A stretch of DNA of 64,000 bases from an uncultured Algibacter sp. (GTDB lineage: Bacteria; Bacteroidota; Bacteroidia; Flavobacteriales; Flavobacteriaceae), in NCBI GenBank assembly GCA_947502405.1, contig CANMZT010000016.1, forward strand, positions 1-64,000. The letters run 5' to 3'. The translations under genes and the position numbers were made by a program. This document shows positions 10,979 to 52,987 of this stretch, piece by piece (position 1 is the stretch's first letter; the number at the start of each line of letters is the position of its first letter). A model generated the notes under the pieces. That model ran no database searches. It worked only from the letters and a program-made list of their open reading frames with translations, and was not told the DNA's origin.

Positions 10979-11033
10979 ATTTACACTACTAAAAAACAAG
11001 TAGTTATAAAAACACAATCAAATAAAATCATTA

Positions 11034-11144
11034 GGGCGTTACCACAAAATTAAAAAAAGGTTTAATTTTGTGGTCAGGCTTTCGGCAGTCGCTTCCCAAT
11101 AAAAATTGGGAGAGCTTCAACAAATGCCTCAATCCTTAACGCAA
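11034..11144 (-). repeat. Dispersed structured element (copy C), reverse orientation
   Basis: Read on the complement it begins GCGTTAAGGATTG and ends GACC...GGTAACGCCC, the same flanks as copies A (13699-13782) and B (52785-52937). Terminal bases GCGTTA and TAACGC pair. The inner hairpin arms are TCCCAAT/ATTGGGA. The second hairpin (plus-strand 11041-11074) has 14-bp arms ACCACAAAATTAAA and TTTAATTTTGTGGT around six bases. The hairpin sequences differ from A and B but stay complementary, which suggests a selected RNA structure. Confidence 0.6.
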
Positions 11145-13317: not shown

Positions 13318-13325
13318 TATATTTG
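13318..13325 (+). promoter_or_regulatory. Candidate -7 promoter element for rpsO
   Basis: TATATTTG, a perfect TAnnTTTG match, 56 bases upstream of the rpsO ATG. Confidence 0.4.
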
Positions 13326-13380
13326 CGGCTTGAAAGAATGACTTTCATAGTACATAAAAATCATTTACAATAATATTAGC

Positions 13381-13650
13381 ATGTATTTAACAAAAGAAAA
13401 GAAAGAAGAGATTTTTGCAAAACACGGTAAAGGTAAGAACGATACTGGTACTGCAGAAGGACAAATTGCGTTATTTACGCAGAGAATTAACCATTTAACA
13501 GAACACTTAAAAAATAATCGTAAGGATTATAACACTGAGCGTTCGTTAGTAAAATTAGTAGGTAAGCGTCGTGCTTTACTTGACTATTTAACTAAGAAAG
13601 ATGTCTTAAGATATCGTGCAATAGTTAAAGAATTAGGATTAAGAAAATAA
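13381..13650 (+). CDS. rpsO: Ribosomal protein S15
   Basis: S15 is an 89-residue primary binding protein of the small subunit that contacts 16S rRNA helices 20-22. The hallmarks are present: GTAEGQIALFTQRINHLTEHL, the conserved KDYNTERSL segment and LVGKRRALLDYL near the C-terminus. Length and start are the family norm. It is followed by its own strong terminator and then by pnp, the classical rpsO-pnp order, here separated by a 338-base spacer. Confidence 0.97.
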   Translation: MYLTKEKKEEIFAKHGKGKNDTGTAEGQIALFTQRINHLTEHLKNNRKDYNTERSLVKLVGKRRALLDYLTKKDVLRYRAIVKELGLRK

Positions 13651-13698: not shown

Positions 13699-13782
13699 GC
13701 GTTAGGGATTGTAGCGGCATCCTTTTTTGATTTTTATTCAAAAAAGATATAGCGGAAAGCCCGACCCTTTAGGGTAACGCCC
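13699..13782 (+). ncRNA. Dispersed structured element (copy A), candidate structured RNA
   Basis: This is the most compact copy. The terminal stem is GCGTTA (13699-13704) with TAACGC (13775-13780). A first hairpin pairs TTTTTTGA with TCAAAAAA, flanked by constant GGGATTGTAGCGGCATCC and GATATAGCGGAAAGCCCG. A second hairpin is ACCC/GGGT around TTTA. Copies B and C keep the constant parts and replace both hairpins by other complementary sequences. It might be the published flavo-1 RNA motif (Rfam), which I cannot confirm without a covariance-model search. It lies directly after the rpsO terminator. Confidence 0.55.
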
Positions 13783-13988
13783 AAATAAATATAACTCGAG
13801 CGTAGGAGTTTAAACCGCGCATTAGAAGAAGCTAGATCCTGAAATGAATTCAGGACTAAAGGTTTTTCATTGGTCGAGACTTTACAGTCGCACACACAAC
13901 AACTACACACAACACAACGACCATTGTTTAACATGTTTTTTGGCGGCCTAAACACTTGTGGCTGCACAAATTACAAACTAAAAAATTT

Positions 13989-30129: not shown

Positions 30130-31440
30130 TTACTCTGCGTTATCTAAAAAATCTTTAACGCGTTCTGTTAACTTATCAAGAAATGAGCGTCTTTCCTTGA
30201 TAGGTTTCTCTTTAACTTCTTCTTCAATTAGCGGTGTTTCTTCTTCTTCAACTTGCTCTTGCAGTTCAATCTTTTTTCTTTCCTGCCTTTTTAAACCATC
30301 TAAAACCAAACCAACTGCTGTAGCAAATAGAGGACTCGTGATATTATCATCACTATCACCAGCAAGGTGCTCATTAGGATAACCAATTCTGGTATCCATT
30401 CCTGTAATATATTCTACTAACTGTTTTAAGTGTTTAAGTTGGCTTCCTCCTCCTGTTAAAACTATACCTGCAATTAGTTTTTTCTTTTGCTCTTCATGCC
30501 CATAATTTTTAATCTCAACATAAACCTGTTCTACAATCTCAACAACACGAGCATGGATAATCTTAGACAGGTTTTTTAGTGTAATTTCTTTAGGCTCTCT
30601 ACCTCTCAAACCAGGAATAGAAACAATCTCGTTATCTTTATTTTCTCCAGGCCATGCAGAACCAAATTTTATTTTTAATAATTCTGCTTGCTTTTCAATA
30701 ATGGAGCAACCTTCTTTTATATCTTCAGTAATCACGTTTCCTCCAAAAGGAATAACAGCTGTATGACGGATAATACCATCTCTAAAAATTGCTAAATCAG
30801 TCGTTCCACCTCCTATATCAATTAAAGCTACTCCAGCTTCTTTCTCTTCTTGACTTAATACTGCATTTGCTGATGCTAAAGGTTCTAGTGTAATACCTTC
30901 AAGATTTAACCCAGAACTTTGAACACAACGCCCAATATTTCTGATAGAAGACACTTGACCAACTACAACATGAAAATTAGCCTCTAAACGACCTCCATAC
31001 ATGCCTATAGGTTCTTTTATTTCTGCTTGACCGTCAACTTTATACTCTTGAGGCAATACATGAATAATCTCTTCTCCTGGAAGCATTACTAACTTATGAA
31101 CTTGATTGATTAGCCTATCAATATCATCATCATCAATAACTGTTTCGGAATTTGAGCGGGTTATATAATCACTATGTTGCAAACTACGGATATGCTGTCC
31201 TGCTATACCAACAGTAACCTCATTAATTTTCATTTCTGCTTCAGCTTCTGCTTCTTGAACCGCTTGCTGAATAGACTGAATAGTTTGCGTAATATTATTT
31301 ACCACACCACGATGAACACCTAAACTTTTAGATTTACCAATACCTAAAATTTCAACCTTGCCGTACTCATTTTTACGACCAATCATGGCTACTATCTTTG
31401 TAGTTCCAATGTCTAACCCTACTGATAAATTATGCTCCAT
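30130..31440 (-). CDS. ftsA: Cell-division protein FtsA
   Basis: FtsA is the actin-like ATPase that tethers FtsZ to the membrane. It has 436 residues with phosphate 1 motif VGLDIGTTKIVAMIG, SHS2 insertion 1C (about 85-165), phosphate 2 ALIDIGGGTTDLAIF and adenosine motif AGIVLTGGGSQLK. The C-terminus has a Glu/Lys-rich linker and an amphipathic helix (RSFLDKLTERVKDFLDNAE) fitting a membrane-targeting sequence. It begins three bases from the ftsQ stop and is 55 bases before ftsZ. Confidence 0.96.
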   Translation of the reverse strand: MEHNLSVGLDIGTTKIVAMIGRKNEYGKVEILGIGKSKSLGVHRGVVNNITQTIQSIQQAVQEAEAEAEMKINEVTVGIAGQHIRSLQHSDYITRSNSETVIDDDDIDRLINQVHKLVMLPGEEIIHVLPQEYKVDGQAEIKEPIGMYGGRLEANFHVVVGQVSSIRNIGRCVQSSGLNLEGITLEPLASANAVLSQEEKEAGVALIDIGGGTTDLAIFRDGIIRHTAVIPFGGNVITEDIKEGCSIIEKQAELLKIKFGSAWPGENKDNEIVSIPGLRGREPKEITLKNLSKIIHARVVEIVEQVYVEIKNYGHEEQKKKLIAGIVLTGGGSQLKHLKQLVEYITGMDTRIGYPNEHLAGDSDDNITSPLFATAVGLVLDGLKRQERKKIELQEQVEEEETPLIEEEVKEKPIKERRSFLDKLTERVKDFLDNAE

Positions 31441-52784: not shown

Positions 52785-52937
52785 GCGTTAGGGATAGTAG
52801 TGGCATCCTTTTTAAAACCTTAGAAAAAATAATTTGCTTAAAAACTTTAGTTTAACAGATTGTTACGGTTGTTCCTCCCTCGCAATGACGTTTTAAAAAG
52901 ATATAACGGATAGCCCGACCCCTTGTGGGTAACGCCC
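52785..52937 (+). ncRNA. Dispersed structured element (copy B), enlarged first hairpin
   Basis: Constant flanks GCGTTAGGGATAGTAGTGGC and GATATAACGGATAGCCCGAC ... GGGTAACGCCC match copy A. The first hairpin is closed by TTTTTAAAAC paired with GTTTTAAAAA, a different sequence from copy A but still complementary. Inside this hairpin lies a 70-base insertion ending GTTCCTCCCTCGCAATGAC, which resembles the family 2 repeat. The element fills the spacer between the NlpC/P60 gene and comEC. Confidence 0.5.
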
Positions 52938-52987
52938 AAATTATTTATTGATTTGAAATTATAAGATATTTTATATCTTTCAAAAGT

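Follow-up and report, generated by a model that had tools for sequence, protein, structure and literature searches.

The 64,000 nucleotides of uncultured Algibacter DNA analysed here (the window) hold three copies, A, B and C, of a repeat family that has well over 100 copies in this genome. Our reading is that they belong to a structure-selected, REP-like dispersed intergenic repeat with exchangeable inner hairpins, of which the catalogued Flavo-1 is one part, and we would give this reading a probability of somewhat under 60%. The new observation is that the inner module is swapped from one related species to another while site, orientation and frame stay as they were. No mention of such an in-place exchange of the inner hairpin within a conserved frame was found in those parts of the literature that were searched, and a search by sequence words returned, among the matches listed, no paper on the element by title. 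The exchangeable inner hairpins together with the kept outer fold suggest a REP-like DNA repeat and not an ordinary small-RNA gene.

Three copies and a common frame

The original prediction had placed three copies in the window, and a frame detector run at a score of at least 40 returns exactly these (A 50, B 48, C 47; next candidate 37.5). The predicted coordinates were correct within a few bases, and ours take in the CCAAA-like tail. The features are as follows.

13699..13785, plus strand: copy A, full element with inner module I (Rfam Flavo-1), in the rpsO-pnp spacer
13699..13704, plus strand: copy A, P1 5' arm GCGTTA, partner TAACGC at 13775-13780
13705..13710, plus strand: copy A, P2 5' arm GGGATT, partner within AAAGCCC at 13756-13762, A.G mismatch inside
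13714..13753, plus strand: copy A, P3 and inner hairpin (the exchangeable module)
13764..13774, plus strand: copy A, 3' hairpin P4 (ACCCTTTAGGG)
52785..52940, plus strand: copy B, full element, module I with a long loop, a Flavo-1 match
11031..11142, minus strand: copy C, full element with module VI, below the Rfam Flavo-1 cut-off
13318..13383, plus strand: neighbour outside the element, S15-Flavobacteria leader RF03161 upstream of rpsO (Rfam scan; ordinary annotation)
13381..13650, plus strand: neighbour, rpsO (ribosomal protein S15)

A hairpin with a T-run follows rpsO, and copy A starts directly 3' of that run. Copy B lies between an NlpC/P60 gene and a Competence-domain (ComEC-like) gene, and copy C, which carries a long 3' hairpin specific to its locus, between a class II aldolase gene and a carboxyl-transferase (accD-like) gene. 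The rpsO-pnp spacer also contains a second small palindrome, GATCCTGAAATGAATTCAGGAC, at window positions 13835-13856, whose presence or absence between species is independent of copy A.

Setting the copies side by side gives a frame made of an outer helix P1 (GCGTTA/TAACGC), a helix P2 (GGGATT/AAGCCC, with a conserved A.G mismatch), a conserved internal loop with G-N-A opposite G-G-A, and a 2 bp helix P3 between this loop and the inner hairpin; a 3' hairpin, GACC..GGT, and the tail CCAAA follow. The end pairing of GCGTTA with TAACGC that had been proposed is found in A, B and C, and the inner arms that had been listed for them are present and complementary in each. The inner hairpin comes in about six kinds, numbered here as modules I to VI; I to IV are as in Rfam, and V and VI are absent there.

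A three-way junction is predicted when A is folded as RNA or as DNA and when C is folded as DNA; the RNA fold of C came out without P1, from an input stretch that was one base short there. Compared with shuffles, RNA folding stability is z -1.8 for A and -5.7 for C, and for B, because of its long loop, the fold is no better than shuffles (z -0.3). Since stability is weak for A and B, the case depends on repetition and covariation.

By eye, other dispersed repeats or hairpins appear to be nested in the loops or arms of the element, in copy B (window 52785-52940) and at L026, L033, L015, L016, L037 and L045. These are a TCATTGCGAGGA..GCAATCTG-like repeat, a terminator-like hairpin and the palindrome CCCGATAGCTATCGGG.

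Covariation and the folding strand

Helix P2 was tested with independent patterns for its left and right halves, in which both letters were free at the tested positions. Of 148 left half-sites 100 were listed and 93 used, the places on contigs C11 and C12 being left out; of 159 right half-sites 100 were listed and all were used. Among the places listed, a right half lies within 121 bases for 81 of the 93 left ones, and both tested pairs compensate in 81 of 81 paired halves with no exception, the first being G-C in 71 and A-T in 10 (Fisher 5e-13) and the other T-A in 64 and A-T in 17 (Fisher 8e-18).

A second line of evidence comes from an alignment of the module-III copies under 112 nt (53 of 56). 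Here 97.1% of cells pair, and 11 of 23 pairs show changes on both sides, a value that 0 of 500 shuffles reached; 60 cells were changed on both sides, compared with 12.7 +/- 2.6 in shuffles and at most 6 when the partners were slid by 1-3 columns. The detector scores P1/P2 pairing, so that pair counts on detected copies, including these and the wobble counts (126 copies) and strand folding (79 copies) given below, lean towards pairing. In 14 of the 53 module-III copies the second pair of P3 is broken. For modules V and VI (27 of 29 copies, C included), RNAalifold returned the same topology unaided, and both sides have changed in 11 of its 22 pairs. Pairing in P3 is poor, with 192 of 234 cells Watson-Crick, which counts against a fully selected helix there. 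P1 positions 4-5 occur as TT, CT, CA, TA and TG, each with matching partners, and arms of wholly different sequence are still complementary. The covariation that had been read from the three copies alone is thus borne out, at the two P2 pairs as in module III.

The copies are related, so these counts of both-side changes do not represent independent events. Under a tree-aware null over 35 frame columns (2 of 81 parses dropped as false alternates), the five best of 595 column pairs are predicted base pairs, with E values of 0.15-0.7 for the top pairs and a tree built from the same few columns. Orthologous sites give cleaner evidence than pooled counts. At site C the stem is CCCAAT/ATTGGG in G000 (our own genome) and G006 and CCCGAT/ATCGGG in G002 and G004, and at site L001 AGCGG/TAGCGG has become AACGG/TAGTGG in G009.

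Covariation could also be mutational, if template switching between the arms of extruded hairpins maintained the palindromes of a neutral repeat. This would account for single-pair changes that are matched on the other arm, and for wholly different arms that stay complementary. However, the mismatched frame positions (A.G; G-N-A opposite G-G-A) are conserved, and in the ten comparisons described in the next section copies at the same site are more alike than their flanking genes. Arm correction predicts neither, which counts against template switching, and we find it quite improbable.

Among wobble-type cells of P1-P3 in the 126 copies, which lean towards pairing as noted, G.T outnumbers A.C by 19 to 5 (there are 53 other mismatches), and of the 79 copies folded as RNA, 61 do better on the plus strand. 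From these two asymmetries the plus strand is probably the folding one, which is compatible with RNA and with single-stranded DNA alike. The main rival to the DNA-repeat reading is a role at the RNA level, as a structured RNA (the Rfam type is sRNA) or as an mRNA 3'-end or intercistronic structure, the transcript of which would fold and bind a protein or protect mRNA ends. We take this as a real if unlikely possibility. Both asymmetries would suit it, as would the conserved G.A-flanked internal loop, where the minus strand would have C and T. The inner modules are replaceable, though, which speaks against it, and further points on both sides come from the genomic context.

Copies in the genome and in its relatives

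Our own genome comprises 3.79 Mb in 81 contigs, and the window is part of contig C16. The right half-site, the 11-mer AWAGCCYGACC, occurs 159 times genome-wide, compared with once for the pattern read backwards, so that the search for further copies that had been proposed turned up at least 159 exact right half-sites. In 400 kb of contig C1 the detector finds 19 distinct frames at a score of 40 or more (21 raw, 2 dropped as second parses of the same places) and none in the reversed sequence, which reached 38 once and 40 never; two more exact right halves lie outside the 19 frames. Summed over the window and these 400 kb, the element fills about 5% of intergenic bases.

The suggestion that the element could be the Flavo-1 RNA held for A and B, which match Rfam RF01705 with 63.1 and 50.9 bits (gathering cut-off 42), and not for C, which is unlisted for Flavo-1 at gathering in a scan of the window with all Rfam families. 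Rfam at gathering reports 5 of the 22 frames (2 in the window, 3 in the 400 kb of C1). At E <= 0.001 the genome has at least 74 Flavo-1 matches, a lower bound because only 150 of 917 candidates were scored; B itself is missing from the set. Flavo-1 and modules I-IV have in common P2, the AGYGG/ARCGG internal loop and the inner hairpin, whereas the outer helix and the 3' hairpin of the present frame are missing from the Rfam model, which is 76 positions long. The plain Rfam form, TAGCCCCGAT..AAGCGGGAAAAAGCTCC without the GCGTTA frame, is found at the order level in G040, G048 and G053. In G048 (L101-L107), near-alike Flavo-1 copies seem by eye to share about 60 upstream bases, which could code for a short hydrophobic peptide entering the element.

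All 22 copies in the 400 kb of C1 and the window are intergenic, in DNA that is about 90% coding. With genes called by a simple codon-score script, 12 of them lie in tandem gaps in the sense of the genes, 7 in tandem gaps antisense, 2 in divergent and 1 in convergent gaps. When relatives are pooled, 0 of 95 copies lie in a called ORF, and the gaps are tandem antisense for 31, tandem sense for 25, divergent for 19 and convergent for 15, with 5 at contig edges; the 95 are distinct sequences that include orthologues of one site. Of 46 cases in which a stop codon faces the 3' tail of the element, 18 have the two no more than 5 nt apart. Adjacency to a terminator was rejected as a general rule; it holds for A but not in general. 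Relative to replication, judged from local GC skew, 33 copies are oriented with the leading strand and 29 against it (p 0.70). C1 alone looked biased (15 plus and 4 minus, all in positive skew), and 20 further stretches cancelled the bias. IS200/IS605-like insertion into the single-stranded lagging strand was rejected on the same 33 to 29, which show no orientation bias.

The numbers for tandem gaps, antisense 31 and sense 25, argue against the RNA-level role. The published record bears on it as well. Flavo-1 is described, in the part of PMC2864571 available, as probably an RNA and probably not cis-regulatory, and in the available part of PMC9029176 it is merely listed. For F. psychrophilum the available part of PMC9723704 reports hits that are indistinctly sense or antisense, many of them not in transcribed regions, which speaks against an RNA; the same source reports Flavo-1 hits at several 5' transcribed regions, which speaks for one. 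Functional support for the Rfam label sRNA was not found in the portions of the literature examined.

With strict filters and 65 candidates scored per genome, Flavo-1 matches occur in 35 of 60 genomes, our own included. Each of the ten genomes of the genus has 20-47 of them, the 27 further members of the family have 0-23 apiece, and five genomes from three families outside this one have 7-32. Among plasmid records, 80 of 72,556 match a module-III query (57 from Bacteroides, 12 from Phocaeicola and 9 from Parabacteroides); among phage records, 1 of 50,697 does. A 112-base unit on a B. ovatus plasmid has counterparts, 93.8-95.5% like it, on two P. massiliensis plasmids; its flanks in B. ovatus are unlike those in P. 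massiliensis, and the two P. massiliensis flanks resemble each other. Two kinds of Bacteroides plasmids have a common sequence from about the first base of the element on and are wholly different before it. The full frame is present on a Moraxella ovis plasmid, and two more Moraxella plasmids match most of it (97.5 and 76.8%). An exact-pattern scan of a species-genome collection gave 7 places, all in Bacteroidota as judged from record titles. At loci L175, L177 and L182, on Bacteroides plasmids, DUF3575 and DUF5119 genes stand beside a LuxR-type gene that runs up to the element and seems to take its stop codon from the element's first bases.

The history of single sites is where the exchange of modules becomes apparent. 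At five sites (A, C, L012:360, L014 and L030) the inner module is swapped in place with the frame kept. At site A the element follows the terminator, in the same place and orientation, in seven members of the genus, with module I in G000, G006 (long loop), G008 and G005 (worn), module III in G002 and G004, and a V/VI-like module in G007. It was not seen there in G009 and G003 of the genus or in G010, G011 and G014-G018 of the family; the comparison left out G001, and G012, G013 and G040 were not parsable. By eye, G037 has at this site a stretch that resembles the 3' half of the plain Rfam form. Site C has module VI in G000, G006, G002, G004 and G005 (worn, interrupted), and in G007 and G008 a module-I-like inner part with an extra hairpin, so that the frame and the unusual locus-specific 3' hairpin are kept as the inner part changes. 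G015 has a worn remnant at this site, the G014 spacer is 35 nt long, and G009 and G003 are not comparable. L012:360 has module IV in G000 and II in G006, L014 has module I or V/VI depending on the species, and L030 has module II, compared with III in G009. At L002 and L003 the difference is confined to the loop.

In ten chosen comparisons of copies with the same module, from seven sites, identity is 93.6-99.1% versus 78-93% for the mostly coding flanks; site A in G000/G008, where the 3' hairpins differ, was left out of this set. This conservation is also a point in favour of the RNA-level role. Swaps within a kept frame and high identity at the same site together mean that replacement and long persistence both occur, and the best reading is that the element is old at many sites. 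Homologous (ectopic) exchange between copies may cause the swaps, which we infer from their products. The conservation of locus-specific parts (C, L010) favours a host function over a purely selfish repeat, and the worn copies (C in G005 and G015; A in G005) argue against an essential one. Occupied and empty sites are too unlike to place the ends of the element to the base, and neither a clean empty site nor a target-site duplication was resolved.

Known systems, exchange and meaning

Features of REP, MITE and RAYT systems were taken for comparison from the available parts of PMC3733652, PMC9769881 and PMC6006769. Like REP and BIME sequences, the element has more than 100 copies and is extragenic, palindromic and found in either orientation; unlike them, it has a larger three-way-junction frame, exchangeable modules and no link to a RAYT. 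The REP foot GT[AG]G is not kept, being absent at P1, and inside the element the base before AG varies. The element resembles MITEs in being short, dispersed, non-coding and patchy in copy number. The original suggestion of a MITE-like element stood in part. The copies are dispersed, patchy in number, carried on plasmids and present in some species but not in others, all of which agrees with it. The anatomy does not, as the P1 ends covary where MITE ends are conserved inverted repeats, and no parental transposon or transposase was found among the half-sites listed.

Mobilisation of a REP by a REP-associated tyrosine transposase (RAYT/TnpA-REP) would fit the high copy number, the extragenic position and the palindromic form, and Bacteroidetes are described, in the available part of PMC6006769, as having a TnpA-REP subclass with atypical flanking secondary structures. 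Against this, a Y1_Tnp match is absent in 6 of 18 genomes with at least 12 Flavo-1 hits, 0 of 20 Y1 loci chosen among the strongest matches have a frame or Flavo-1 match, the only Y1 domain of our own genome (L031, G000:C22 ~30159-30461) is inside a restriction-modification protein, and the foot is not conserved. RAYT mobilisation was rejected on this want of association; it is already largely refuted, and we give it hardly any weight. No mobilising enzyme was found for the element. An autonomous version, with its left and right halves 250-4000 bp apart, was looked for among the 93 left and 100 right half-sites listed on C1-C10 and did not turn up.

Two observations on Y1 domains were made along the way. 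The L031 domain is in frame within an Eco57I/N6-methylase protein, between its methylase parts, and the Y1 matches in G001-G004 are also in open frames of more than 1000 aa. The Acido-Lenti-1 RNA (RF01687, sRNA type) matches at L231:1628-1673 (39.4 bits), about 35 bases from a Y1 gene, and at L226:1744-1788 (35.5 bits, below the cut-off of 37), about 100 bases from one; this "sRNA" may be the REP of those Y1 transposases.

The attC site of integrons is a selected imperfect hairpin with a variable terminal part and a conserved AAC/GTT core. The element could be an attC-like folded recombination site for a tyrosine recombinase, as it too is an imperfect hairpin with conserved ends and a variable inner part, this part is exchanged in place, and on Bacteroides plasmids different upstream DNA stops at its first bases. 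Unlike attC, the core triplets vary, with P1 positions 4 and 5 changing as pairs, no cassette arrays were seen, and the replication-strand bias is absent (33 versus 29). An attC site was rejected on the core and on these paired positions, and we think a role as such a site very unlikely.

For the REP-like DNA repeat that we prefer, we can outline how copies might arise and change. The plus strand would fold as single-stranded DNA into the three-way junction, and an enzyme or host protein would read this folded strand. New copies would be rare, some of them brought by plasmids, and recombination across the frame arms that all copies share would let one resident copy be rewritten from another. 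Near the 3' ends of genes the element may be tolerated, or adopted as a folded 3' region. One could go further and see the frame as the address of a dedicated exchange system, in which an enzyme recognises the folded single strand and swaps inner hairpins between copies. We regard this stronger version as doubtful; if true, the genome would keep more than 100 docking sites with interchangeable hairpin cassettes, and the Flavo-1 "sRNA" would be one cassette set of a new kind of folded-DNA repeat.

Flavo-1 has been in the catalogues since 2010 as a probable RNA whose function is unknown; it appears to be the partly visible core of a repeat that is larger, modular and DNA-like. If the element is such a repeat, annotations of a "Flavo-1 sRNA" would mislead, and each genome would offer more than 100 natural replicates in which the copying, exchange and upkeep of folded repeats could be tested.
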